From a virus: a stretch of 38,045 bases of DNA. Location: IMG/VR virus record IMGVR_UViG_3300033156_001353, positions 1 to 38,045 of that record; one strand, given 5' to 3'. This document shows, piece by piece, positions 1 through 38,045 of the stretch (its first letter is position 1; each line of letters begins with the position of its first letter). The notes under the pieces are model-generated. The model was not told the DNA's origin. It searched no databases and saw only the letters and a list, made by a program, of their open reading frames with translations. Both the position numbers and the translations under genes were made by a program.

Positions 1-114
1 AAAAATAATTATAGCCCCAGCTCTACCCACAATTCCTGCAAGTTGTCTACAAGCTTGACCCATAAGCCGAGCCTGAAGACCCATATAAGCTTCTCCTGTA
101 TCTCCCTTATATTC
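1..114. repeat. Terminal direct repeat, left copy (circular junction)
   Basis: These 114 bases are identical to 37932-38045. The recA reading frame passes through both copies in phase, so joining position 37931 to position 1 restores one intact gene. This is the usual signature of a circular or circularly permuted genome written with an overlap at its ends. A true short terminal repeat on a linear virion molecule is less likely, because it would sit inside recA. Confidence 0.9.
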
Positions 115-519
115 TGCTTTCGGAATCATAGCACTCACGGAATCTATCACAAATAGCTCCACATCTGGTAATAGATCCCGAATTATTTCAACAGCCTGCT
201 CTCCATATTCCGGACAAAAATATAAATAATCTTCATTCATCTGTCCTAAACCCAGAGTCTTTGCATAATCCGGATTGAAACTATTCTCCATATCAAGCAT
301 ACATGGTACAAGACCCGCTTTTTGAGCCTGCCTCATTGCATATATCCCCAAAGTAGTCTTTCCTGAACCTTCTTGACCATAAATCTCTATAAACCTACCT
401 GAAGGATATCCACCACCTAAAGCCCAATCAAGAAGAATTGATCCTGAGCTTAAAATATAAACAGGCCTTTGGTCTTGTCCATATTTTTTAATTATTTTTT
501 GATAAAGATTCTCAATCAT
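1..519 (-). CDS. recA: RecA/UvsX-like recombinase, N-terminal part (continues at 37931)
   Basis: Strand-exchange recombinase for phage recombination and replication restart. The ATG at 519 overlaps the SSB stop codon (ATGA) and has GGGGAT upstream. The frame runs off position 1 and continues at 37931 down to the stop at 37530, giving 306 residues in all. In the joined protein, Walker A is GQEGSGKTT at residues 48-56 and Walker B is LFVIDS near 122-127. A Met-Gly-Leu-Gln-Ala-Arg segment near 146 and a loop-2 region with NQTR follow in the second part. It is shorter than bacterial RecA (about 350) and lacks most of the C-terminal domain, as is common in phages. Its position directly after a gp32-like SSB supports a recombination role. 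Confidence 0.93.
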   Translation of the reverse strand, partial: MIENLYQKIIKKYGQDQRPVYILSSGSILLDWALGGGYPSGRFIEIYGQEGSGKTTLGIYAMRQAQKAGLVPCMLDMENSFNPDYAKTLGLGQMNEDYLYFCPEYGEQAVEIIRDLLPDVELFVIDSVSAMIPKAEYKGDTGEAYMGLQARLMGQACRQLAGIVGRAGAIIIF

Positions 520-1163
520 GCGATATCCCCAAATCCCTCTCCAAATAATGGAGTATCTTCCTCTTCTTCAGCAAACTCTTTAAAATCTCTCTGTTCTATC
601 GGAGTAAGATTAACAGATTTTGGTTTCATCACATCTACATTCAACTTTTCACCTTTTCCCAGGAAAATCAGCTTATATTTTGTCTGAAGACCCTCACCAG
701 TCCTAAAAGTCTCAAAATCAATATTTACCCCAAACTTAATAATATATTGCTCCACCTCAGAATAATACTGTTCCGATTGTTTTATAAATGCCACTATATT
801 TCGACCATATATCCATACAGGAGCAATATATCGCTTACGTAAAGGATAAGGTTTAAGCTTATTATCCTTAACCCCCTCAGCTTCCTTTTTAGCATTAGCC
901 TGACACAAAGCACATCCCTTTCCTACACAATGAACAGTAGAAAATCCTCCACCATCTCTTGAAATATGTTCCCATACAGGAATTGGCTTTACCCACTGTT
1001 CCCAAATATCATTTTTCTTAACCTTCTCTTTCATTACATCTAAGGAAAGGTCAGCAAACAGAAATCTAATCTTTATGGGATTATCTTTTGGTATAATCAA
1101 CACAGGTACATTACCCTCTTGTACTATACCATCCCTTGATTCTTGAAGACCCCAAATGCTCAT
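516..1163 (-). CDS. Single-stranded DNA-binding protein, gp32-like zinc type
   Basis: A 215-residue protein. It has a zinc-ligand cluster H78-C79-x4-C84-x2-C87 inside a basic and aromatic core, followed by an OB-fold-like stretch (RYIAPVWIYGRNIVAFI). The tail is strongly acidic (FAEEEEDTPLFGEGFGDIA). The His/Cys cluster and acidic tail are the hallmarks of T4 gp32-type SSBs, whose tail recruits replication partners. The start at 1163 has a perfect AGGAGG seven bases upstream and overlaps the purZ stop by ATGA. The gene sits between purZ and recA in the replication operon. The fold is inferred from motifs, and overall similarity to gp32 is probably low. Confidence 0.75.
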   Translation of the reverse strand: MSIWGLQESRDGIVQEGNVPVLIIPKDNPIKIRFLFADLSLDVMKEKVKKNDIWEQWVKPIPVWEHISRDGGGFSTVHCVGKGCALCQANAKKEAEGVKDNKLKPYPLRKRYIAPVWIYGRNIVAFIKQSEQYYSEVEQYIIKFGVNIDFETFRTGEGLQTKYKLIFLGKGEKLNVDVMKPKSVNLTPIEQRDFKEFAEEEEDTPLFGEGFGDIA

Positions 1164-2212
1164 TTATTGCCTCCTAATTTTTTAATAATTCCTCTATCAT
1201 AAAAATCGTACATCTTTTCACTTGTACCAACATAATCTATACCGTACCCTGTCTTTTGTTCAAATTTTTTAATCCATTCATATACCTTAGGACAGAGTAT
1301 ATCGTTATGTGATTTTTGGTTATACTCGATATAATGAGGAAAATTAAGACAAATTATATTCGGCTTATTTAACATTAACGCATATTCTATATCCCAGAAA
1401 CTAAATTCAAATACACGCCTCACACGACCCGTTACGGTAGTAACTTCAGGAGCAACATTTCCCCCACATCGTTTACTAATTTCTTCCCAGGATATCTCAT
1501 GATCACCAGTATATCCTGAATGACCACCTACTCGAATAGGATAGGTTCTCATAACTCCAATAACATTTTCAATATCAACTAAACTTAATCCCGTTTCAGA
1601 GAGTATCCCAGCCACTGTACATTCTCTACTCGTTACGTAAGGATAATATGGAGAAGTATGTACTGATAAGAGAGTACCCTGAGCACCTTCTATTAAAAGA
1701 CGCCCATCCATATTATTTATCATCCGAATAGTATCAGTAACATTAAGATGATAACATTCAAAATCATCAATAAGATTTTCCACACGAGTAACATCCGGAG
1801 ATCGCATAAGCTTTTCACATAAACTCTGACCAGCTCCCTCACCAGTAGAGCCTATAGATTTTACAAGCTCTCGCTCCGCCTCTGCATGACGCTCTTCTAC
1901 CAAAGTAGCTCTATAATCAATAAAAAGTCTGTCTCTTATACTTATACCTATGTTTTCAAGAGCCTTTATTTCTGATATAAGTACATCCATTTTTATAAAA
2001 CCACCAGCACCTATAAAAAGCTTACACTTTGGATTTACCCATCCACATGGTATCTGTCTCATTTTAAAAATTTTCCCATCATAAACTACGGTGTGACCAG
2101 CCTGAATGGATTGGACACGCATCATCCCATGATAAAATTCTGCTATATCAGCACAAACTTTTCCTTTACCTTCAGAACCGTATTGAAGTCCTATCAATAT
2201 ATCAACCTTCAT
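1160..2212 (-). CDS. purZ: PurZ, 2-aminoadenylosuccinate synthetase (Z-genome biosynthesis)
   Basis: A 350-residue member of the PurA superfamily. Phage PurZ condenses dGMP with aspartate to give the succino-precursor of 2-aminoadenine deoxynucleotide (dZMP). The P-loop reads LQYGSEGKGK. Ser13 stands where PurA has its catalytic Asp (WGDEGKGK), which is the diagnostic PurZ change. The next motif is QAGHT (His40), followed by STGEGAG near residue 123, EGAQGTLLS near 175, YPYVTS and the TGRVRR arginine motif. The guanine-specificity motif TKxD of PurA is replaced by CLNF, which fits ATP rather than GTP as phosphate donor, as reported for phage enzymes. Its length is closer to archaeal PurA (about 340) than bacterial (about 430). 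SD AGGAGC precedes the ATG. A true phage-encoded PurA is the alternative, but Ser13 argues against it. Confidence 0.9.
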   Translation of the reverse strand: MKVDILIGLQYGSEGKGKVCADIAEFYHGMMRVQSIQAGHTVVYDGKIFKMRQIPCGWVNPKCKLFIGAGGFIKMDVLISEIKALENIGISIRDRLFIDYRATLVEERHAEAERELVKSIGSTGEGAGQSLCEKLMRSPDVTRVENLIDDFECYHLNVTDTIRMINNMDGRLLIEGAQGTLLSVHTSPYYPYVTSRECTVAGILSETGLSLVDIENVIGVMRTYPIRVGGHSGYTGDHEISWEEISKRCGGNVAPEVTTVTGRVRRVFEFSFWDIEYALMLNKPNIICLNFPHYIEYNQKSHNDILCPKVYEWIKKFEQKTGYGIDYVGTSEKMYDFYDRGIIKKLGGNK

Positions 2213-7372: not shown

Positions 7373-10300
7373 TCAGACTCCGTAATTACTAGAATATTGA
7401 GTATTTGTGCCATAATCCGAAAATGCTGTAGTATTACCATGTAAAATATTACCAACAATTACATTATCATTACAATTTGCATCACCAACACTTATTCCAT
7501 ATGAATTATTAAAAGACACATTCTCTACTAAATTATTCCTATTAGAATTAGAAAGCCGTATACCATAACCACAACTTATACAAGTATTCCCTTTGATATT
7601 TGTTCCATCACTATAACTAAGCTGAATACCATATGGAGAGCAACTTGTGACCTTATTATCAGTTATATCAATATAATCACATTGATATATAAAAATTCCA
7701 TAGTATGTACATCCATCAATCTTATTCTTATTAATAGATACCTTCACTTTATTTGAAGATGCTCCAGATAATTCAATACCATATCTACAATCATCTATAA
7801 AACAATCTTTAATAACTCCCCTGAGATTATCTCCAGACAAACTTATAGAAATACCTCTTGACATATCTTCCCCATCAGTATTCCCCTTAAAAATACAATT
7901 CTCTACTATAAAATCTCCATCTGCATTCATACCAATTCCATAAGAGCCTGTTGTTCCCAAATCAGGTATATCATTAAATATACAATTTCTTACATTAAAA
8001 TTGTTGCACATATAATTCCATAATGCCCAATAATTTATATTCTCAAAAATAACATCGTAAATATATACATCATTTGAATCTCTAATATTTATTATTCCTA
8101 TTTGATTTGAATCTTCGCATTTTATCGTTAAATTATAAATTCCCACATTATCCGTATAATTACCATAAATCGCATTATCATTACAATTTCGATTAATAAT
8201 AGTTCCCTCTTTAGATTCACCCTCTATTCTAATACCTGGTTTTAGAACAATCTTCCCATCAATATTAAACGTACCATTTGAAAGTCTTATCCTACCACCA
8301 CCATATTTTTCATAAAGGTAATCAATAGCATCATTAATAATATCCTCATCACTTGAGCCTGAACAATAATAATGAGCAACATCTGTATAATCACTTGCTC
8401 CTATAATTAAAGTAGCTCCCACCATTTGCTGATTACGCATTCCCGGAGCATAAGCCTCAAACCTTGTAGAATATGTAGAATCTTTCTTCCAATTTTCAAG
8501 CTGTTCATAAAGGATTATTGAAGTTTTTTCCTCTCCAGTACTTGCATTGTATTCCCAATTGACCTCTGCAATTTCAGCCTTTGAATTTATATACTCAGAA
8601 AGCCCTGCCTGTCCCACAACCACATTAACCCATTCTCCTGGGAGCAACCAGAGCCATCCCCCAGTCATACTCATCGAATATTTATGCTTTCCACCTTTTC
8701 TTGATTTCCACCAATATTCCGCAATTTTGTCAACCTGAGAAGTAGAACAAATATAATCATTCGCAATTTCAAGATCATTTTCCCCATTTTCTCGAATATC
8801 CTTTATATCTTTAAACCAATCATGCACATAACCCTCACCACCAGTAATTTTTATTACAGGATTACCCACTATTGATACACCATAAACGTACACTGTACTA
8901 CCAGTCCCGTTATAAAGCTTGAAATATGCTCCATCAGGTCTTGTTGTGGTATCAAAAAGTGTTTGTGTAAGTGTACCGCTCGCTCTAACATTAAGCTGAG
9001 CATTTTTAATACCAACTATCTCAAGCTTTGCTCCACCATAACGATCTGAAAGCTTGTAATTTATTGTTTGTGTATAATAACGTTTTGTTCCAGGATAACT
9101 ACCATGAGATCGAGATTGTCTCGAAATACTTGCCCATGGCTGATCATATCGAGCAAAAAATTTGCTTCCGAATGTGGTAGGGTCTGGAAAATACTCTCCA
9201 TTAGCAATAGCTACTCTCATTTGCTCTCCACCATCAAACACACCACTCTTTGTTGCACTCCATAAACACCATTTGGTTTTATATTTAACAGAAGGATCAG
9301 CAGTATTCGTATTATAATATGCCCCACGAACAATTATCTTGTTATAACTTGCCTTTAAAATATCAGCCGTAAAATTATGGATGTCATCACCAGTTATATC
9401 TTCAATTGCATTTGGATCAGATTCCTGCTCATTAAAGCGACTTCTATATCGTAAAGCCCCACACCAATCAAAGCCCATAGATCTTGCCAAAGTAGCAGTA
9501 GCAATATCTCCCATATAAGTCCATACTGGATAATCAGGAAGTACCAAAGCCCAGGGATGAGTATCTGTAACTGAAACTATATCATAACCAGCCCTTTCTA
9601 TTACATCATATCTATCATTATTTTTTGGAGAGTCTGCAGAATAATAAGTCCCATTACCATCATCAGCATTTAAGATAAACCATTCATATCCCTCACCTTC
9701 AGTAAGCATAGCTCCATCAAAATAAATAGTTACAGATGCATTCTCTTCTAAGACAATCCTCAATCTATCACTTGCAGAATCAGTTATCTCATGTTCAACC
9801 TCATATCGTTTCCAACCAGAACCACCTGTATAATTACAAGATTCACTTGAAGAATTATTAAGTCCTGCAGAGTCCCTCTCTTCAATTTTTATATCTACAC
9901 TTACATTTAAAGAGCTTTTCATCCATATAGCAAATACCCACTTATCCCCGACATTAAGCTTTTTGTCTCCAGTAAATCTTATCTCTTGATATATATATCC
10001 TGAACCAGTCCAGACTCCCTCACAAGAATAAGTTCCAAATAAAGCCTCTGATGAAGATCGAGAAATTGAAACATTCCCAGAAGTAAGCCAACTATTCCCT
10101 ATAGTCGCATTCTCAAAACTTGAATTACTTGCATAATTATAAATCTTCAATGCCGTTGCAAGTTTGCCTATTTGAGTAATAAGAGAATTTGACTCATTCG
10201 ATTCATCAGCAAATTGAAGACCTTCATAATACTTAGTCTCTTCAACATAAACTTTTGACATCTCTTCTGTCATATCTTCAAATTCAATCCGAACAGTAGA

Positions 10301-11836
10301 CTTATCTCCAGGAGCACTTTCCCGCTTAAATCCATCTGCTGTTAATCTGCCAAAAAATATTGGCTCAAAACTATCCCCATAATAAACTTCCATCTCAACT
10401 GGACATCGTTTCTGAAGATATTTTTCATCTGAAGTTCCATTATATTGTTCATTCTCAGGATCAAAACTCGCATATTGATCATCAGAGAAAATTCCCTTAA
10501 CATTATTTATCGTAGCCCATCCCTTATTTGCTATTAAAAACCCAGCTCTACTCTCTTTTGTCATCTCTATACCAAGAGAATTTACTCTATGGGAAATATT
10601 ACACCGAGTCCTTCCTGTTCCATGACCATTAAAGCTCCAATAAACCTCTTCTGTTTTAATATTTCTCATGCGGTTTGAAATATCTGTTGACGTTGCAAGG
10701 TAATTCGGCCAGATCCTGAGGAAAGCTATTTCACCATCCCAATGATATGCTTCAGTTACATGACCTATAGACAATAAAGGAAAGTTAGAAGACTTTATAT
10801 CAACATTTCCACCCCAATTTGAATCCTGCAAAACCCAATTTACATAAAGACTTGATCCAGTAGATTGAGAAGTCCTAAGATCAATAATCCCGACTATATC
10901 AAGCCATTGATTAAGATTATCATAATTAGTTCCATCATCAAACTGCTGAGACCAAAGAGAGCGACCTGTTCCACCATCTATCCAATAAAGTCTTATTTTA
11001 TCTTCAGCAGATCTATAATAAAGAATTAACCTATGCGTATTATCTATCCGCCATGTAAATATTCTTGGATTCATATCAGTATCATAAGCAAAATAAGGTT
11101 TTACTCTTACCCAAAAAGTAAAATAATCTGGCATTTCAAAACAGTACTTTGGAGCAGGATCTCCTGCAAGATTTCCAAATTGTGCAACAAAACTACCTGG
11201 TTGATTCTCTTCTGTCAAAGAAATCTGATCTATCCATATGGAATCACCAGCTGGAACATCAGTCCACAATTGTATATATAACAATATCCCCGTACAATTA
11301 AGATCAACCGTAAAAGTCCCACCAACTTCCTCCCATTGATTCGATATTGATAGTTTACACAAAGTTTTATAATGCCATGCTCCGTCATAATATTGAGCAA
11401 CAATCAAGAAGGTATGATCTACATTAGCTGTATCAGTTCTCATCATGCATTTTAATGTATATGTTTTACCAGGAATAAGTCCGTGCATATCTGTATCACT
11501 ATGTGTGTCTTGGAAATATGCCTGAGCATGTCCATCTCCAGACGCTGATGTTTTTACCATCCGCCAGGAATAATTTCCCCGATAAGCCTCAGTAGAAGAC
11601 CTTGACCATGTACAATTTGAAGTAACTGGAGTAGATTCCCCTTTTACCATCGGAGCATTCGGGGAATCACAATGACCACGCTCTATTAATTGATCTAACT
11701 TGTGAAAAGACAGTCCATGTCCCGCAAGTGGTGGATAAACTTTTTGCCTAAAATCGACAAATAATTGATAATTCTTTCCACCTGCAGGCTCTCTAAGATA
11801 TGTCTTAAAATTATCATCAATAAAAAGTAAGCTCAT
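7373..11836 (-). CDS. Large multidomain tail tip/tailspike protein with C-terminal beta-helix
   Basis: 1487 residues, the longest gene. The start overlaps the tape-measure stop (ATGA). The first part resembles carbohydrate-binding jelly-roll domains (about 45-210) and a LamG-like domain (about 225-400). A tail-hub-like region follows (VEMEVYYGDSFEPIFFGRL near 490), then a second jelly-roll near 570-710 (NASFEN-type motif SSFENATIG). From about residue 1190 on, short repeats such as GIQLSYSDGTNIKGNTCISC and GIRLSNSNRNNLVEN form a right-handed parallel beta-helix of the pectate-lyase/NosD type. It probably combines baseplate hub and receptor-binding or polysaccharide-degrading functions. Catalytic residues cannot be assigned. 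Confidence 0.8.
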   Translation of the reverse strand: MSLLFIDDNFKTYLREPAGGKNYQLFVDFRQKVYPPLAGHGLSFHKLDQLIERGHCDSPNAPMVKGESTPVTSNCTWSRSSTEAYRGNYSWRMVKTSASGDGHAQAYFQDTHSDTDMHGLIPGKTYTLKCMMRTDTANVDHTFLIVAQYYDGAWHYKTLCKLSISNQWEEVGGTFTVDLNCTGILLYIQLWTDVPAGDSIWIDQISLTEENQPGSFVAQFGNLAGDPAPKYCFEMPDYFTFWVRVKPYFAYDTDMNPRIFTWRIDNTHRLILYYRSAEDKIRLYWIDGGTGRSLWSQQFDDGTNYDNLNQWLDIVGIIDLRTSQSTGSSLYVNWVLQDSNWGGNVDIKSSNFPLLSIGHVTEAYHWDGEIAFLRIWPNYLATSTDISNRMRNIKTEEVYWSFNGHGTGRTRCNISHRVNSLGIEMTKESRAGFLIANKGWATINNVKGIFSDDQYASFDPENEQYNGTSDEKYLQKRCPVEMEVYYGDSFEPIFFGRLTADGFKRESAPGDKSTVRIEFEDMTEEMSKVYVEETKYYEGLQFADESNESNSLITQIGKLATALKIYNYASNSSFENATIGNSWLTSGNVSISRSSSEALFGTYSCEGVWTGSGYIYQEIRFTGDKKLNVGDKWVFAIWMKSSLNVSVDIKIEERDSAGLNNSSSESCNYTGGSGWKRYEVEHEITDSASDRLRIVLEENASVTIYFDGAMLTEGEGYEWFILNADDGNGTYYSADSPKNNDRYDVIERAGYDIVSVTDTHPWALVLPDYPVWTYMGDIATATLARSMGFDWCGALRYRSRFNEQESDPNAIEDITGDDIHNFTADILKASYNKIIVRGAYYNTNTADPSVKYKTKWCLWSATKSGVFDGGEQMRVAIANGEYFPDPTTFGSKFFARYDQPWASISRQSRSHGSYPGTKRYYTQTINYKLSDRYGGAKLEIVGIKNAQLNVRASGTLTQTLFDTTTRPDGAYFKLYNGTGSTVYVYGVSIVGNPVIKITGGEGYVHDWFKDIKDIRENGENDLEIANDYICSTSQVDKIAEYWWKSRKGGKHKYSMSMTGGWLWLLPGEWVNVVVGQAGLSEYINSKAEIAEVNWEYNASTGEEKTSIILYEQLENWKKDSTYSTRFEAYAPGMRNQQMVGATLIIGASDYTDVAHYYCSGSSDEDIINDAIDYLYEKYGGGRIRLSNGTFNIDGKIVLKPGIRIEGESKEGTIINRNCNDNAIYGNYTDNVGIYNLTIKCEDSNQIGIINIRDSNDVYIYDVIFENINYWALWNYMCNNFNVRNCIFNDIPDLGTTGSYGIGMNADGDFIVENCIFKGNTDGEDMSRGISISLSGDNLRGVIKDCFIDDCRYGIELSGASSNKVKVSINKNKIDGCTYYGIFIYQCDYIDITDNKVTSCSPYGIQLSYSDGTNIKGNTCISCGYGIRLSNSNRNNLVENVSFNNSYGISVGDANCNDNVIVGNILHGNTTAFSDYGTNTQYSSNYGV

Positions 11837-30505: not shown

Positions 30506-33295
30506 TTAAAATATTTTTACTATTATATCAGACATCTGTCTTAATACCTTTTCCGAAATCTCAACCCTACCCATAGGAACACCTTTATAAAATATATTTG
30601 GATATAAAGAATTTTTGCCCACACGTATAGGTTTATTAATCTCAATAAACATATCTTCATATCTCGTTACAAGCCTCTTTAAAACCCCTCTTTCATCAAC
30701 ATTAAATATCCCTATAGTACCATTTTTTACATTAAGTTTTCCCCATACATTGGGAAATACAGTTATAGATTTAACCCCATCCAAAAACTCCACAGTTAGA
30801 AAAGCCATCGGCAAACCATTTTTAGTAATCTTTTTATGAATATCAATAATTTCTCCAACATTTGCCCATTTATTCCACCAAATACAATCTATCTTACGCT
30901 TCCCTACATAATATCCCAAAAATTCCCTTTCATCTTCCATCGTAGGCTTTCGACCAAATACACCTATTCTATCTAATATATCTAATACCCGCTTATTAAC
31001 ACGAGCCTTTTGAATAAAATCTTCCTTATCCTTATATGGCCTATTCTTAAGTATTACTTCAACAGTCTTTTTACCAATATATTTTATACCACCTAATCCA
31101 ATATATATATGATCATCTCTTACTTCAAAACTTTCCCCAGATTTATTTATGTCTGGATATCTAATCTCTACACCTCTACGCCTACATTCACTCAATATCA
31201 AGGTTCTTTTACTGATATCTGAATTGTTTAAAAGCTCACATAAAAAGTATGCGGGATAATTGGCCGAAAAATATGCTGTCCAATAAGAAATAAGTGTATA
31301 TGCTACAGCATGACTTAAATTCCACGTATATCGACCATATTTTTCAATAATGTTCCAAAACTTTTCCCCATCTTCACAACTTGCAATAAATTTAGATTTT
31401 AAACCCTTAAGTAATTTTTTATCCTTTTTACTAATAGCTTTTCTGAGAATATCAGCTTCCCCAGTACTAAAACCAGCTACTACCCTGGCTAAAGTCATAA
31501 TATCTTCTTGAAATAACGGTAAACCCTGATGTTTAAGCTTAAGCCTCGGATGTAACTGTTCTACAGGTTCAAGCCCATGTTTCCGCCTTATATACTGCTC
31601 AGTGATTCCACTCTCTAAACAACCTGGTCTATATAAAGTATTTAAATCAACAAGCTCATCAAAAGTCTCTGGCTTAAGCCTCCGGATTATGTTAATATAA
31701 CCACTTGATTCCCATTGAAACACTCCCAAAGTATGACCTGACCTAATAAGATCAAAAGTCTTTTCATCATCAAGAGGAATATCCTCTACAGAAATACTTA
31801 ACTGCTTACACAAATTCTCTATCATCTGTAAATTATTAACACTCAATACATCAAACTTAACCCTCTTCATATATTCAAGACTATACATATCCCATGCTGT
31901 AGCTATCTTTCCTTTATATTTTCTCAAAGGTATACTATCAGCACATACTATTCCCGATGCATGAATAGATTGACCCTTCTTTACCCCCTCAAGTTTAAGA
32001 CATATACGTATAAACTCTTCATTATGTTCACGCTTAACCTGATCCAGAAAACTCTTAGTTTTGACAAGTTCAGCCAAAGTAGGAATTGGAGCTTCATTCG
32101 GTACATATTCTATAAGTTTTGTCTTTATTCCCAAAAGTTTAGATACCGTTATTAAAACATCTTTCGTACCAAATGTTTGATACGTACCTATTTTCTGAAA
32201 ATTACCATATGCGTTAAAAATATCAATAGCTTTTTCTCTCCCCTCTGGAGTAAAATCTAAATCTATATCAGGTAAAGATATTCTATCTGGATTTAAAAAT
32301 CTCTCAAAGTAAAGACCCCATTCTATCGGGTCTATTTTGGTTATTCCCAAAAGATACGATACAAGTGACCCCGACGCACTACCACGACCCCATCCTCGAA
32401 ATCCACCACGATTATCAAATTTATTGCAAACAGTAGCAACCAAAGCAAAATATGATAAAAATCCATTCTCTTTGATAACTTTAAGCTCATACTCAAGCCT
32501 TTGTCTATAACCCACTGGACACCTTCTCCGAAGACTCTCTATAAGAACCTCTTCAGAAAATTCAAATTTTGGCATAATAATTTCATCAGGAGCTATTTCA
32601 TACTCTTCCACACTATCAGCTATCTCTTCCGCAACCTTACAATCTATTTTCCTGTAAAAATATTCTCCATTCAAAGGTTTCGGATCTTTAAATTTTAATT
32701 TATACAACAAAAAATGAATTTGTTTATCCTCTTTATCTAAATAATGCGTATCTCCAGTATGTACACACCTTAACCCACGTTTTTTATATTCCCTATAAAC
32801 TGCCTCTTGTTCAGCCATTCCACATAACTGTACTTCTGGATATATCTCAACTTGATCATCCATTTTCTTATACCATTCCATATCAATACTTCCATTAAGT
32901 ACCGATTTTGCCAAATATCCACTTATACATCCAGTAAGATATATAATTCCATCACTATAAGTTTTTAAATATTCAAATGGAACAACAGGTTTTCTATAAA
33001 AATTTTGCACCGCAAGATTATTTAATCTAATCAAATTATCAAAACCACGCTTATTTTTAGCCAAAGCTACAATATGATATGTATCTCCATTGTATTCATG
33101 ATAAAACTCACATCCATGAATAGGTTTAATCCCTTGCTTCTTGCAAGCTCTATGAAATTCCACAAGTCCACCAACAGTTCCATGATCAGTAAGAGCCACA
33201 GCCTTTTCTCCATTCTGTTTTGCACGCTTTACCAAATCTTCCACTTTAACTATTGAATCTAATACTGAATAATCCGAATGATTATGTAAGTTCAT
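30506..33295 (-). CDS. dnaE: DnaE-type DNA polymerase III alpha subunit with PHP domain
   Basis: 929 residues, shorter than bacterial DnaE (about 1160). PHP domain 1-215 keeps the metal ligands seen in active PHP exonucleases: H4/H6 in LHNHSDYS, D37-H38, E63, H74, C123, D182 and H184. Polymerase palm: GRGSASGS at 303-310, PDIDLDF with Asp343 and Asp345, and KFDVL with Asp482. An OB-like segment lies near residue 820 (IIDIHKKITKNGLPMAFLTV). It is the only replicative polymerase in the window. The start overlaps the dUTPase stop (ATGA). In this genome it must copy and accept Z if the PurZ prediction holds. Confidence 0.95.
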   Translation of the reverse strand: MNLHNHSDYSVLDSIVKVEDLVKRAKQNGEKAVALTDHGTVGGLVEFHRACKKQGIKPIHGCEFYHEYNGDTYHIVALAKNKRGFDNLIRLNNLAVQNFYRKPVVPFEYLKTYSDGIIYLTGCISGYLAKSVLNGSIDMEWYKKMDDQVEIYPEVQLCGMAEQEAVYREYKKRGLRCVHTGDTHYLDKEDKQIHFLLYKLKFKDPKPLNGEYFYRKIDCKVAEEIADSVEEYEIAPDEIIMPKFEFSEEVLIESLRRRCPVGYRQRLEYELKVIKENGFLSYFALVATVCNKFDNRGGFRGWGRGSASGSLVSYLLGITKIDPIEWGLYFERFLNPDRISLPDIDLDFTPEGREKAIDIFNAYGNFQKIGTYQTFGTKDVLITVSKLLGIKTKLIEYVPNEAPIPTLAELVKTKSFLDQVKREHNEEFIRICLKLEGVKKGQSIHASGIVCADSIPLRKYKGKIATAWDMYSLEYMKRVKFDVLSVNNLQMIENLCKQLSISVEDIPLDDEKTFDLIRSGHTLGVFQWESSGYINIIRRLKPETFDELVDLNTLYRPGCLESGITEQYIRRKHGLEPVEQLHPRLKLKHQGLPLFQEDIMTLARVVAGFSTGEADILRKAISKKDKKLLKGLKSKFIASCEDGEKFWNIIEKYGRYTWNLSHAVAYTLISYWTAYFSANYPAYFLCELLNNSDISKRTLILSECRRRGVEIRYPDINKSGESFEVRDDHIYIGLGGIKYIGKKTVEVILKNRPYKDKEDFIQKARVNKRVLDILDRIGVFGRKPTMEDEREFLGYYVGKRKIDCIWWNKWANVGEIIDIHKKITKNGLPMAFLTVEFLDGVKSITVFPNVWGKLNVKNGTIGIFNVDERGVLKRLVTRYEDMFIEINKPIRVGKNSLYPNIFYKGVPMGRVEISEKVLRQMSDIIVKIF

Positions 33296-33759
33296 ATGCC
33301 AGTACTCCCAAAACCTCGTTTTCCTCTATCAGACTCCAAAAGCTTTCCCTCTTTAAATTTTACTGGGATTAAAAAATTTGGTACTATTTGACATATCCTC
33401 TCACCATCACGAATAAACACATCTTTACCTGAAATATTTCGAGCTATAGCAAAAATCTCCCCCCGATAACCATTATCAATAACCGCTATATTAACAATTA
33501 TACCCCTTTTATTGAAACTGGAGCTTCTACCAATTATTGAAAACCATATCCGATCCTTTGGAGAAATATATGTACCAGTTCTAATATCTTTAACCTCTCC
33601 AGGTTTTATCAAATGATCTCCCTTAACATACAAATCATACCCAGCATCACCTTTATAAATATTTCGAATCTCAAGCTGATGACAATTATCGCTTATGAAA
33701 AATACTTTTCTGGGATACAGAAGAAACCATTCCAAAATCTTTCCTATAATTCGACGCAT
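33292..33759 (-). CDS. dut: dUTPase
   Basis: 155 residues from the ATG at 33759 (GGGGAGG nine bases upstream). All five trimeric dUTPase motifs are present: DAGYDLYV, GRSSSF, IDNGYRGEI, GERICQIV and RGKRGFGSTG. It hydrolyses dUTP to dUMP, keeping uracil out of DNA and feeding dTMP synthesis. A short basic, hydrophobic N-terminal extension (MRRIIGKILEWFLLYPRK) precedes motif 1. It overlaps the kinase gene by 74 bases, suggesting a joint nucleotide-metabolism unit. Confidence 0.93.
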   Translation of the reverse strand: MRRIIGKILEWFLLYPRKVFFISDNCHQLEIRNIYKGDAGYDLYVKGDHLIKPGEVKDIRTGTYISPKDRIWFSIIGRSSSFNKRGIIVNIAVIDNGYRGEIFAIARNISGKDVFIRDGERICQIVPNFLIPVKFKEGKLLESDRGKRGFGSTGI

Positions 33760-34198
33760 GATACCAGACCTCCCCACCTGATTTACATTCTATAATATGT
33801 CTTCTTGACCTTAACTGATCAAGATATTGCTCAAACTGAGTAATCCTATCCATAATTACATCTAATATATCATCCTGTCTACCCCTCGATGTATGAATAG
33901 CTCTCCAGAGAATTACTTCAATAGGAACATTCAAATACAGTATTAAATCAACATACTTTTCTTGCTTTTTGTTGCGAGGAAAACCATCAATAATTGTTAA
34001 TTCAGGTAAATTCTTGACTATGTTAATAATCCGTTTATTCCACGACAAACTATATCCATATCGCCTGGCCACATCTATATTATAGCCACCAACCCGCACC
34101 ACATCTCCTGGAGAAAAATAATAAAATCCTAATCCAGACGCCACACGCTTACTAATTGTAGTTTTTCCTGAAAAAGGTTTTCCTATTATTCCTATCAT
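33686..34198 (-). CDS. Adenylate-kinase-like nucleoside monophosphate kinase
   Basis: A 170-residue P-loop kinase. GKPFSGKTT (7-15) is the P-loop, SPGDVVR the NMP-binding segment (adenylate kinase has STGDMLR), IIDGFPRNK matches the DGFPR signature, and SRGRQDD with MDRITQFEQYL is a short LID. It transfers phosphate to a nucleoside monophosphate. Beside dut, PurZ and DatZ, a natural guess is phosphorylation of dZMP. Known Z phages are thought to rely on host kinases. The start overlaps the primase-helicase stop (ATGA). Confidence 0.8.
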   Translation of the reverse strand: MIGIIGKPFSGKTTISKRVASGLGFYYFSPGDVVRVGGYNIDVARRYGYSLSWNKRIINIVKNLPELTIIDGFPRNKKQEKYVDLILYLNVPIEVILWRAIHTSRGRQDDILDVIMDRITQFEQYLDQLRSRRHIIECKSGGEVWYHASNYRKDFGMVSSVSQKSIFHKR

Positions 34199-36360
34199 AT
34201 CTCACCTATTATTTGAGAATCTCTATCAAAATTACATCTTATTAAAACGTTATCAACATTATATCGATGCTTATCAATAAAAATATTAAACTCTCCATCA
34301 CGATTACGAATTGTCATAGCTACATCAACATCAGCAATAGCTCCATATGACCCACTTGACCATTGAGCAGTAGGAACAGCCTGATTTTTAGCATATCGAC
34401 CTAATTGACTCAAAACAAGTACCGTAACCCCTAATTTATTACAAATTTGTGTTTTTATTGTTTGACTTATAATTTCTAATTGCTCCCACCGTTCTTTACG
34501 ACCCGACATTTGTATTAACTGAAAATAATCAATTACCACAAATCTAAAATCTTTTCGAGATACAAGACCAGATATTACAGCCACAATACTATGCAGACTA
34601 TATGTATTACTAACAATTACCAGATTATCTTTTATTTGACTTATTTCCCTTTTGAGAACATCTCTCTGTTCTTCAGATATTTTTCCAGCAGTTATAATTA
34701 CGCTATTTATTCCAGTTCTCATAGACAGAATCTTACTTATAATTTCTTCTGGAGTAGGCTCAAGACTTACATAGATAACATTCTCCCCCATATACATAAG
34801 ATCATTCACAAAATTACATGCCAGAGTAGTCTTCCCTTCTCCAGTATTACCTAAAACCATAATAAGCTTTCCTGGAATCCAACCTAACAAAGTGTCATTA
34901 AGAGTCTTAAATCTCGCTCCAAGAGGAATGCCTAAAAGCTTTGAATTAGTAAGTCTTTCCTCAATAGATTGAAGATATGCAGTTGCCACCTGTTTACTAT
35001 CCGTTATTTTAGCTCCGCCATCATACAGCTTATAAATCTTACTTATAAACTCTTCAAATTTACCATCATAACGAAAATCCTTATAAGCTCGCTCCGCTTC
35101 TTCAAGCCTATAAACATTAATAACCCTGGAAAGATAGGCCTTATAATTCTTAATATCTGGATCAATATAAAAATTTATTCCCATAGACTCAAGTAATTTC
35201 TGATTAACATTCTCATGTTTTATCAACAGATTAAATATCTTTCGATGCTTTTTACTATGAAAATAAGAAGGATTCAATCTACCAATAACCTCATTTCTAA
35301 TATATCCCGAAACCAAAGCATTAGAAAGTACCCGTACCTCTGCCATATAATCAGGTTTCACACCTAAAAATAAATACGGAGCAATATCATCCCCAAATTT
35401 CTCCAAAAGATATTTCCTAAAATATACCTTTTCCAGATCCGGTAAAACCCGTACTTTTTCAGCTATCTTCTTTAATTGATCTAAAGTTTTTGGCCTTGTA
35501 TCAGCATACCACACAATTGGATATTTTGGCTCATTATCAAATCTTCCTTCAAGAATAGCCTCATCGGGATCACCATGAGCAAGTTCTATATATCGTACTA
35601 TAAAATCATCTGGATAATTCCCTATCATATCTTCAAGAAATCTTCGACCAGCCAAATCTCCATCAGGTACAAAAATCACATTTTTAAGATTTCTTTGTCT
35701 AAGATCTTCCCAATACCCTGGCAACATTTTTAAACCACACATAGCCACAGCATTTAATCCATACCTACGAGCAACAAGTACATCATTCTGTCCCTCAAAA
35801 ATATATACAGGTTCATCACGCACTTTATCTACTCCCCAAAGAACATCTCTCCACTGACTTGTTTTTACAGTTAAAAAAGCCTTTTCTTTTTTAGACCTGA
35901 TATATGCCCCAAATATACCATCGATATCATAGAAAGGATATATAAGACAATCTTCAATTACCCCTAAGCCAAAATCCCGCAAATTAATTTTATCACAATC
36001 TCGTATTCCATATTCCCTCACTATATCCGATGATATTCCCCTATAACTCAAATCAGCATAAGGAAAACCCTCTATTATCCGAGTTAACAACACTTGATCA
36101 TTAGCTACCTCATAATCTATATTTCCTCCCCACGATTTATATTTCTGAATAGCCTCATATCGAGAAATATGTTCCATATTTTGAATAAACGTTATCACAT
36201 CTCCACCACGCCTACAGGAAAAACAATACCATAAATATCTTCCATCTACCAAAGATATGGAAAACGATGGTACAGTATCTTGATGAAAAGGACAGCTTAA
36301 CCACCACTCATTACCACGCTTTTGATACTGAAGACCATAACGATCCAAAACATCTAACAT
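34195..36360 (-). CDS. Bifunctional primase-helicase (T7 gp4-like)
   Basis: 721 residues. CHC2-type zinc finger at 23-49 (CPFH ... CFSC), a TOPRIM domain near 185-245 (IFEGQNDVLVARR and FVPDGDLAGRRF), a linker, and a DnaB-type helicase from about 495: VLGNTGEGKTT Walker A, FVVIDYFQLI Walker B, VLVLSQLGRYA and SSGSYGAIADVDVAM. It primes and unwinds at the fork for the DnaE-type polymerase. No separate helicase loader or primase was seen. The ATG is directly after the preceding TAG. Confidence 0.93.
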   Translation of the reverse strand: MLDVLDRYGLQYQKRGNEWWLSCPFHQDTVPSFSISLVDGRYLWYCFSCRRGGDVITFIQNMEHISRYEAIQKYKSWGGNIDYEVANDQVLLTRIIEGFPYADLSYRGISSDIVREYGIRDCDKINLRDFGLGVIEDCLIYPFYDIDGIFGAYIRSKKEKAFLTVKTSQWRDVLWGVDKVRDEPVYIFEGQNDVLVARRYGLNAVAMCGLKMLPGYWEDLRQRNLKNVIFVPDGDLAGRRFLEDMIGNYPDDFIVRYIELAHGDPDEAILEGRFDNEPKYPIVWYADTRPKTLDQLKKIAEKVRVLPDLEKVYFRKYLLEKFGDDIAPYLFLGVKPDYMAEVRVLSNALVSGYIRNEVIGRLNPSYFHSKKHRKIFNLLIKHENVNQKLLESMGINFYIDPDIKNYKAYLSRVINVYRLEEAERAYKDFRYDGKFEEFISKIYKLYDGGAKITDSKQVATAYLQSIEERLTNSKLLGIPLGARFKTLNDTLLGWIPGKLIMVLGNTGEGKTTLACNFVNDLMYMGENVIYVSLEPTPEEIISKILSMRTGINSVIITAGKISEEQRDVLKREISQIKDNLVIVSNTYSLHSIVAVISGLVSRKDFRFVVIDYFQLIQMSGRKERWEQLEIISQTIKTQICNKLGVTVLVLSQLGRYAKNQAVPTAQWSSGSYGAIADVDVAMTIRNRDGEFNIFIDKHRYNVDNVLIRCNFDRDSQIIGEI

Positions 36361-36771
36361 CTATAGCTCCATTGGTTTATTAAATCTTGGCATTCGCTTA
36401 TATACTTTATAGACCTCTGAAAGAACATCCGAATAATCTAAAGCTAACTTTAACCTATCATCATCTCTCATATTATTCAAAAGGACAAGCTCCGATACCT
36501 CATGAGGTTTACATTTCAAAGACACTTTTTCATAAACAGCCCAAAACTCATCATCAAACCGCACATCTACATTAACTTTTCTCGGTAAATATCCATTATT
36601 AATAATTTTCAAGAAATATTCCCAATCATGAACACCTTTCGGATCGAAATATTCAACAAGACTTATTATCTGTCCTGGAGTATGTTTACAAAGAACAGGT
36701 TCAAGAGTCTTATATACTTTCCAGGGATCAAAATCAAGCTTTCTACATACAAATATTAATTGCCAGGTCAT
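36361..36771 (-). CDS. Hypothetical protein upstream of the primase-helicase, 136 aa
   Basis: Begins MTWQLIFVCRKLDFDPWKVY. Helical, with GQIISLVEYFDPKGVHDWEY and KCKPHEVSELVLLNNMRDDD. It overlaps the preceding gene (ATGA) and is followed without gap by the helicase. A helicase loader or replication accessory is possible by position, but no motif supports it. Confidence 0.65.
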   Translation of the reverse strand: MTWQLIFVCRKLDFDPWKVYKTLEPVLCKHTPGQIISLVEYFDPKGVHDWEYFLKIINNGYLPRKVNVDVRFDDEFWAVYEKVSLKCKPHEVSELVLLNNMRDDDRLKLALDYSDVLSEVYKVYKRMPRFNKPMEL

Positions 36772-37094
36772 AATACAAGTTCCTTTTCCTCTGTTACGAG
36801 AGTTATTTTTCTACTTAAAGAATCATATTGAAACTTTACATCCTTAAGTAACTGTTCAAACATATCACGTTTTGACATAGCCTCTAAATCTCCCCTATTC
36901 AACCGTACATGATTTACAAGAAAAGCATATATTTCAGAAAGATAATTATACAACGCAGGATAATAACCAAGCAAATCATAATAAAGATCCTTATCAACAG
37001 GTAGCTTATAATGGAGCTTGATTAATTTAAACATCTTCTTTCTAATCTCATTAAAAGGTACACTAAGCACATTATCTACTCTTATATATTCCAT
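36768..37094 (-). CDS. Hypothetical helical protein, 108 aa
   Basis: MEYIRVDNVLSVPFNEIRKK; all-helical with DLEAMSKRDMFEQLLKDVKF at the C-terminus. It overlaps the DatZ-like gene by 13 bases and the next gene by ATGA. I looked for a MazG/MazZ motif (EExxE ... ExxD) and did not find it. Not recognised. Confidence 0.65.
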   Translation of the reverse strand: MEYIRVDNVLSVPFNEIRKKMFKLIKLHYKLPVDKDLYYDLLGYYPALYNYLSEIYAFLVNHVRLNRGDLEAMSKRDMFEQLLKDVKFQYDSLSRKITLVTEEKELVL

Positions 37095-37624
37095 TGATAT
37101 CCCTCTAAACTCGTTTTATATAATGGAATACAGTATTCAAGTCTTGACAAGAAAAACCTCTTTACATTATGATCTATATCAAAATTATAAAGCTTTGTGT
37201 AAGTATATCGCTCCACATCATATAAATGCCAATTACCACTTTTTCGCTCTTCTTCAAGATAAATCTTAAGCTCAAGAAGATCACAAAATTCCACAAGCTT
37301 CTGTATATTCTCGGAAAAGTCATTCTCTATACCAAATTCTTTATAAATATTTTCTTCTGGAACATTAAGTATAGGCTTAAAAAATGAAGGAATGTCTCCA
37401 GTTATACATTCAGGAAGATCATGAAAAAGTGCACATCGCAAAGCCTCTTCAACCGAAAGTCCCATCATCATAGCACCAAGCATTGCATAATAAGCCACAA
37501 AATATGAATGTTCAGCCACAGATATTTTATTATTTACGCACCTTGTTGAGAACCGCTTGATATATCTCAAAGATCTGTTTCTCCGATAATTTAGAGATGG
37601 ATTCATAAAACGCTTGTTTGCCAT
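37082..37624 (-). CDS. datZ: DatZ-like HD-domain dATP phosphohydrolase
   Basis: 180 residues. LRYIKRFSTRCVNNKISVAE-His39-Ser aligns without gaps to the start of YfbR/DatZ enzymes. Then comes H68-D69 in LFHDLPECITGDIP and the last metal ligand D115 in FCDLLELK. DatZ of cyanophage S-2L removes dATP so that polymerases insert Z opposite T. Together with PurZ this supports a Z genome. The ATG at 37624 has GGGGAG seven bases upstream but overlaps recA by 95 bases; a Met at 37606 or a TTG at 37570 (GGAG upstream) are alternative starts. A general dNMP phosphatase (YfbR) is the other possibility. Confidence 0.78.
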   Translation of the reverse strand: MANKRFMNPSLNYRRNRSLRYIKRFSTRCVNNKISVAEHSYFVAYYAMLGAMMMGLSVEEALRCALFHDLPECITGDIPSFFKPILNVPEENIYKEFGIENDFSENIQKLVEFCDLLELKIYLEEERKSGNWHLYDVERYTYTKLYNFDIDHNVKRFFLSRLEYCIPLYKTSLEGYQWNI

Positions 37625-38045
37625 TGAATTTCTCCCCTTCATAAATATACCATGTACCATTAATAGTTACCTCTCCACACATAATTAAAAATTCTATAAA
37701 TTCTCTATGAAGATCAATACCTTTACCATACACAAGAGGAATATCTACCTCTCTAAAAGGAAGACTAAATTTATTTTTTGTTATTTTAGCCCTTATTAAG
37801 TGACCCTCTTTATTAACCTCAATAGCTCTAACATGAATCCTTTGGGAAGAATAAAATCGTAAAGCCTTTCCACCGCTTGTAGTTTCCGGAGATCCAAAAA
37901 ATACACCTATTTTTACACGAGTCTGATTGATAAAAATAATTATAGCCCCAGCTCTACCCACAATTCCTGCAAGTTGTCTACAAGCTTGACCCATAAGCCG
38001 AGCCTGAAGACCCATATAAGCTTCTCCTGTATCTCCCTTATATTC
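37530..38045 (-). CDS. recA: RecA/UvsX-like recombinase, C-terminal part
   Basis: Continuation of the gene that starts at 519. The frame is open from 38045 (which equals position 114) to the stop at 37530 and carries LAGIVGRAGAIIIFINQTRV, the loop-2 region FFGSPETTSGGKALRFYSS, and IPLVYGKGIDLHREFI. An internal Met (38015) could be mistaken for a start; it corresponds to residue 146 of the intact protein. The C-terminal domain is reduced. The last 95 bases overlap the DatZ-like start region. Confidence 0.93.
   Translation of the reverse strand, partial: EYKGDTGEAYMGLQARLMGQACRQLAGIVGRAGAIIIFINQTRVKIGVFFGSPETTSGGKALRFYSSQRIHVRAIEVNKEGHLIRAKITKNKFSLPFREVDIPLVYGKGIDLHREFIEFLIMCGEVTINGTWYIYEGEKFNGKQAFYESISKLSEKQIFEIYQAVLNKVRK
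37932..38045. repeat. Terminal direct repeat, right copy
   Basis: Identical to positions 1-114; see the left copy. Removing it gives a circular map of 37,931 bp. Confidence 0.9.

Follow-up and report, generated by a model that had tools for sequence, protein, structure and literature searches.

A PurZ-type protein and a C-family DNA polymerase encoded together in a 38-kb phage genome predicted to contain 2-aminoadenine

The stretch analyzed here (the window) is the 38,045 nucleotides of IMG/VR virus record IMGVR_UViG_3300033156_001353, and its subject is a purZ-type gene at positions 1160..2212 with the replication genes around it, which together bear on whether the phage carries 2-aminoadenine (Z) in place of adenine. 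The plus strand over these positions is full of stops and the open reading frame (ORF) lies on the minus strand, where it encodes 350 residues from an ATG start preceded by a Shine–Dalgarno-like AGGAG. The window is a complete circular phage genome: an exact 114-bp direct repeat is present at both ends (1..114 and 37932..38045) and lies within recA, the N-terminal part of which is at 1..519 and the C-terminal part at the opposite end, at 37530..38045 (both minus strand). Since the genome is complete, the absence of a gene carries weight.

In minus-strand order around the circle, the purZ-type gene is followed by genes for a protein resembling single-stranded DNA-binding protein (SSB), RecA, a DatZ-like HD phosphohydrolase of the YfbR family (37082..37660), two conserved cassette proteins of 108 residues (36768..37094) and 136 residues (36361..36771), a primase–helicase fusion (DnaG zinc ribbon/Toprim with DnaB; 34195..36360), a nucleoside monophosphate (NMP) kinase of the adenylate kinase family (33686..34198; 170 residues), a trimeric-type dUTPase of the Dut/DutZ family (33292..33777), and a DnaE-type (C-family) DNA polymerase III alpha (30506..33295; 929 residues). 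The SSB-like protein (516..1163; 215 residues) is named by eye and from its position; it has no match in Pfam, NCBIfam or PHROG, and sister phages have relatives of it in the equivalent position. The 108- and 136-residue proteins (36361-37094) match nothing in Pfam or PHROG. As called, the ORF of dut shares 92 bases with the kinase gene, and comparison with relatives indicates that its true start is probably at Met7 (about 33759). The same full order occurs in loci L009, L010, L012/L013 (with identical DnaE) and L346, and L091, a locus in a metagenome-assembled genome (MAG) of Clostridia, contains the full phage cassette in that order, with one unknown protein without a match. A reduced cassette is found in L025, L035, L023, L300 and Bacillus phage vB_BpsS-140 (hereafter 140). 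In the DNA compared, L025, L035 and L023 have no kinase or DatZ match; the 108-residue protein is kept in these three and in L300.

The motifs recognized from the letters alone are all present on the minus strand: LQYGSEGKGK with Ser13 (codon 2174-2176), QAGHT (37-41) and TGRVRR (261-266), with loss of TKxD. Ser13 occupies the position of the catalytic Asp of PurA. The TKxD of PurA is changed into LNFPH (289-293), with His293 (codon 1334-1336) at the position of the guanine-reading Asp. The protein matches Pfam Adenylsucc_synt (170 bits, E 8e-50) and the adenylosuccinate synthetase family of PHROG (E 8e-70). The best NCBIfam model is PurZ NF038379 (236 bits, E 5e-70), with archaeal-type PurA next at 226 bits; the score is below the NF038379 cut-off of 300 bits.

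Residues were compared on the basis of the S-2L structure paper, as far as its text was available (PMC8342488). In the pocket for the base of dGMP (Y, G, S, N, A, T, Q, V in S-2L), seven of the eight positions agree, Gln178 and Val228 among the residues shared, and Asn49 is replaced by Gln37 (codon 2102-2104). Among the PurZ-unique substrate residues S23, T273 and Q308, the Ser and the Thr (Thr258, codon 1439-1441) agree and Q308 is replaced by His293. At this last position, phiVC8 has Asn and PurZ0 has Asp; within the clade of the window (see below), Asp occurs in L009, L010, L012 and L015, and Asn in L011. An Asp/Asn motif taken alone as a marker of the PurZ and PurZ0 clades is therefore rejected, with His, Asp or Asn present in a single clade, and, because the position varies, the choice between ATP and GTP as donor may have switched more than once. 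Like the PurZ proteins of phiVC8 and S-2L (36% and 31% identical, respectively), the window protein has Ser for Asp, has lost the guanine-reading Asp and has the same fold; unlike them, it keeps the Gly262-Arg263 of PurA (in TGR) and its C-terminal part is similar to PurA and PurZ0. PurZ0 (Gordonia and Arthrobacter phages; 7VF6) also has the Ser, with dut in the same genome, but it carries the Asp (ALTMLD). The structure model (predicted local distance difference test, pLDDT, 92.1) has its best Protein Data Bank matches with P. horikoshii PurA, phiVC8 PurZ with dGMP, PurZ0 and S-2L PurZ; as modeled, the fold cannot separate PurA from PurZ.

The tree does separate them. In an 80-row tree (10 likely near-copies omitted), all Ser-type proteins, including that of the window, are apart from the two PurA rows, P. 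horikoshii and E. coli (support 100/99). The window forms a clade with L009, L010, L011, L012 and L015 (six rows, 100/99). Classical PurZ forms another (31 rows, 100/99), with phage 140 near its base, and PurZ0 a further one (18 rows, 100/100). The window clade is inside neither and is weakly sister to PurZ (91/47). In a quick tree with 44 phage rows, 30 of 80 genome loci (hand-picked) and 11 PurA, the PurA split holds (Shimodaira–Hasegawa-like approximate likelihood ratio 100), but the tree gives no clear order of branching for the Ser-type clades. On sequence grounds, the window protein is a third clade beside classical PurZ and PurZ0. The sequence-only reading, which had assigned it to PurZ and not to PurA, is supported by its position outside the PurA clades and by the dGMP-pocket residues, most of which are kept.

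On the other hand, that reading took Ser for Asp as diagnostic of phage PurZ, and this part does not stand. A scan of GTDB with patterns of the clade, one of them requiring the Ser, gives 270 relatives, and among the best 80 of these the Ser is present in every protein in which the loop is covered. Thirteen of these genomes were searched whole: nine have a full-length PurA besides the Ser-type protein, and the remaining four, all MAGs, have the Ser-type protein only. Ser-type relatives are thus common in cellular chromosomes, and because of this a Z genome must not be called from the Ser by itself. Bacterial chromosomes with a Ser-type PurA-like protein besides a true purA include L101, L123, L151, L161 and L162 (about 10001-11040). 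One cellular form, of ~540 residues, has a P-loop kinase-like part fused at its N-terminus, and a similar small gene follows it, by eye, in L161 and L162. These uncharacterized cellular proteins, together with the missed NF038379 cut-off, would suit an enzyme making a Z-type nucleotide for non-genomic use, or acting on another substrate, in a phage with normal adenine; the restriction result discussed below, moreover, concerns only the distant relative 140, which EcoRI cut. We consider such a role quite improbable, however: the characterized phage PurZ and PurZ0 fall in the same Ser-type group as the window protein, the DatZ-like and replication genes are conserved together with PurZ, and contigs selected by a DnaE motif nearly always carry PurZ (see below).

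For the polymerases, 50 PurZ-bearing records were searched whole: the window, seven named phages and 42 of 80 IMG/VR PurZ loci (the best 80 of 453 relatives), chosen mostly with a length of at least 27 kb and with likely near-copies dropped before the results were seen. Scans of IMG/VR with the single window PurZ or DnaE sequence gave no matches, and alignments were used instead. DnaE (PF07733) is found in 9/50 records and PolA (PF00476) in 27/50 at E<=0.001 (26 above cut-off); the L064 record (395 kb) is the only one with both. In the complete window genome, PolA is not found. DnaE is the sole replicase detected there, and because of this it is the probable replicase of the genome. It has PHP, palm and fingers domains, with Asp343, Asp345 and Asp482 at the catalytic positions. 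DnaE, kinase, DatZ-like protein and Dut are all present in the window, L009, L010, L012 and L013; phage 140 has all but DatZ. On the other hand, L011 (a 268-kb contig) and L015 (a 56-kb contig), both members of the window clade, have no DnaE, PolA, DatZ or kinase match, with Dut present in L011. Ser-type PurZ-like genes without a DnaE or PolA match occur also in L018 and L041 (250 and 312 kb); these two and L011 could come from large phages that use a different polymerase, or from cells.

The 2021 S-2L paper states that every Z-phage except S-2L has PolA, the replicase of S-2L being PrimPol (PMC8342488). The 2026 survey reports PolA-type Z-specific polymerases (DpoZ) in two groups, and in PurZ0 phages DutZ/DmtZ together with a PolA-type DpoZ, in contrast to the DatZ-like gene and DnaE of the window; the terms "polymerase III", "kinase" and "BpsS" do not occur in the available part of its text (PMC12884076). 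In the literature searched, which extended neither to the PurZ0 paper nor to the Science papers of 2021, no PurZ phage with a C-family polymerase was found. In the available text of these sources, the pairing of a C-family DnaE with PurZ is not described; the Z-phage polymerases they cover are PolA-type or PrimPol (PMC8342488, PMC12884076). The window DnaE resembles DpoZ in its link with PurZ, but it belongs to an unrelated polymerase family.

In the window DnaE, the conserved Phe of YGFNKSH, equivalent to Phe756 of E. coli, has become Trp658 (codon 31322-31324). A DnaE tree (19 rows) places the PurZ-linked DnaEs other than that of 140 (eight, two of them identical) in one clade (100/99); a PF00709 protein occurs in none of the nine comparison phages, with 140 as positive control. 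Phage vB_BpsS-36, which shares its host species with 140, has DnaE and no PurZ. When the seven distinct PurZ-linked DnaEs are set against ten others, from E. coli and nine phages, six columns are invariant in the former and found only there. In the Phe756 column, Trp occurs in 7/7 of the former and Phe in 9/9 of the others with letters there. Phage 140 shares only one of the six (Asn at E. coli 788) and has Phe at 756. Among IMG/VR DnaE relatives (the best 80 of 529), the two with Trp are PurZ carriers, the 76 with Phe show no PurZ in the DNA compared, and the remaining two have no readable motif. Searching IMG/VR, blind to PurZ, with the DNA pattern for Y[TS]WNxxH[AS]xxYT gives ten contigs, nine of them with PurZ. 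Five are PurZ records already known; each of the others has DnaE, and PurZ is present in four of these. In the tenth contig, DnaE is in the first kilobases, so that the expected PurZ region is missing from the contig. The ten include near-copies (74-100% identity among four).

The 2-amino group is all that distinguishes Z from A, and it is on the same edge as the N2 pocket of the polymerase. F1276, H1280 and Y1284 of E. faecium PolC have the same spacing as F756, H760 and Y764 (F-x3-H-x3-Y). F1276 contacts the nucleobase edge-to-face, gates a pocket for N2-substituents and helps to place incoming nucleotides (PMC12592400, from the text available). In B. subtilis, polC F1264S is a mutator (PMC5627055); F1264 is taken to be the same position as F756 and F1276. 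The match of the Trp change in position and chemistry is striking, but it may rest on one evolutionary event, because all Trp-containing DnaEs form one clade. A requirement for Trp in every DnaE Z-phage is rejected, since 140 and L300 carry PurZ and keep the Phe. Both points would also agree with a Z genome in which DnaE does not discriminate, control of the pool by DatZ setting the base and the Trp being a neutral mark of the lineage. DatZ-like matches are indeed present in five DnaE-bearing records of the window PurZ clade (four distinct phages, L012 and L013 sharing their DnaE), and neither the S-2L PrimPol nor Klenow discriminates A from Z (PMC8342488). However, L025 and L035 have the Trp and no DatZ match, and the Trp falls on an otherwise constant residue (Phe in 9/9 rows without PurZ and in 76 of the 78 IMG/VR DnaEs with a motif). 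We regard such a non-discriminating DnaE as a serious possibility, somewhat short of an even chance.

Among the enzymes of the nucleotide pool, the DatZ-like protein belongs to the YfbR/HD family, with H-HD-D. It matches the dATP triphosphohydrolase of PHROG (E 1.3e-11), with a PHROG of unknown function scoring slightly better; it is a candidate for dATP removal that could instead be a YfbR-type nucleotidase. DatZ-like proteins occur in 18/50 of the PurZ-bearing records and Dut in 25/50. DUF550/MazZ has no match in the complete window genome or in any of the 13 DnaE-type records; the reach of this search is limited, with S-2L and SH-Ab above cut-off, Bm1 weak and phiVC8 unmatched among the controls. 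The window shares PurZ and a DatZ-like protein with the Z-cluster of S-2L (purZ, mazZ, datZ) but, without a MazZ match, it has Dut and an NMP kinase, and DnaE instead of PrimPol. The window Dut is assigned to Dut/DutZ by family membership only. Dut proteins of PurZ0 phages have a reported activity on dGTP and dATP (PMC12884076, from the text available), and with MazZ absent this suggests that Dut may replace it.

The kinase has the fold and P-loop of adenylate kinases, an R-x-R-x-D-D-like lid motif and DGFPRxxxQ, but its lid is short. The model (pLDDT 85) and the profile match both adenylate kinases and UMP/CMP kinases. Aligned phage relatives are 21-36% identical, with DGFPRxxxQ nearly constant and Gln79 invariant; we take Gln79 to be the adenine-reading Gln of adenylate kinase. 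The family is above cut-off in 8/50 PurZ-bearing records, six of which have PurZ and DnaE. It is not exclusive to Z-phages: of 42 viral IMG/VR kinase loci, 41 are without PurZ in the DNA compared, L300, with a PurZ-like piece, being the exception. Such a distribution, like the fold matches, suits an ordinary phage kinase for AMP or deoxynucleoside monophosphates (dNMPs) with no special part in handling dZMP. Yet, of 50,697 phage records, only the PurZ-positive 140 matches it at E<=0.01, and the gene is kept beside dut and after dnaG/B in eight relatives (L009, L010, L012, L091, L345, L346, L300 and 140); the invariant Gln79 points the same way. We give an ordinary kinase and one with a role in dZMP phosphorylation about equal chances.

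Phage 140 (MH884512) is the cultured relative. It has PurZ, RecA, DnaG/B, the adenylate kinase-like kinase, dut and DnaE in the order of the window, and it differs in the missing DatZ match, in its PurZ near the base of the classical clade, and in its DnaE with Phe, split in two ORFs. It has in addition thyX and two sigma factors (L090:6675-7382; L002:16585-17373 and 31141-31818); among the window proteins scanned, neither family is above cut-off. The available text of the 2019 paper on 140 lists DNA polymerase III subunits and adenylate kinase, and "adenylosuccinate" does not occur in it (PMC6483233). There, virion DNA of 140 was the only phage DNA uncut by DraI, and EcoRI cut all phages (PMC6483233). 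The 140 genome contains 21 DraI sites (21.1 expected from composition) and 24 EcoRI sites, together with PstI (4) and BamHI (3) sites, although the same text implies no cutting by these two. The resistance to DraI fits a modified A:T base. No enzyme-by-enzyme restriction data on Z-DNA that would account for the cutting by EcoRI were found in the literature searched. EcoRI digestion next to DraI resistance, and the missing DatZ match in 140, could reflect a partial or mixed replacement with both dA and dZ in the genome. For the window we find this unlikely: a DatZ-like gene is present there, and EcoRI may tolerate Z; for S-2L, near-complete resistance to adenine-targeting enzymes in general is reported.

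All in all, the window is a complete 38-kb tailed-phage genome, most likely with adenine replaced by Z, and at least some Z in its DNA is a still safer expectation. In the scheme proposed, PurZ would condense dGMP and aspartate into the succino-precursor of dZMP, and a host lyase of the PurB type would complete dZMP; the sequence-only reading had given this last step to host PurB, which is plausible. The phage kinase would then phosphorylate dZMP, or dNMPs more broadly. In place of the missing MazZ, the dUTPase-family protein would convert dGTP to dGMP, and the DatZ-like HD enzyme would remove dATP. DnaE, with Trp for Phe beside N2 of the incoming purine, would copy the genome using dZTP. The gene neighborhood is better evidence for Z than Ser13, and the co-conservation of DatZ, Dut, kinase and DnaE with PurZ makes the Z genome a good prediction. 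Several observations weigh against it: the missed cut-off, Gln37 and the retained Gly262-Arg263; the cellular Ser-type relatives; the clade members L011 and L015 without the partner genes; the kinase loci without PurZ; the possible single origin of the Trp and its absence in two PurZ phages; and, in 140, EcoRI digestion and no DatZ match. The sequence-only reading, which already predicted a Z genome, gave no strand and missed the C-family polymerase, the kinase, the lack of a MazZ match and the third clade.

More tentatively, the window could represent a third type of Z-DNA replication, with a DnaE selecting dZTP through Phe to Trp at the N2-contacting residue, a dZMP kinase, a dUTPase turned dGTP hydrolase and the third PurZ clade, the phages concerned being probably of Bacillota. 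This is possible, though doubtful as a whole. If true, a C-family replicase linked to PurZ would show that the class of polymerase with which bacteria copy their own genomes can adapt to an altered base, with the Trp of DnaE as one named candidate residue for base selection. Phage 140 is in a public collection as DSM 29700 and carries most of the same gene set.

The split of DnaE in 140 (L002:31811-35418), into two overlapping ORFs with the PHP part and the polymerase part, is found also in L300 (L300:13491-16987). Since it occurs at the same kind of place in both, it looks genuine, not the product of a sequencing error.
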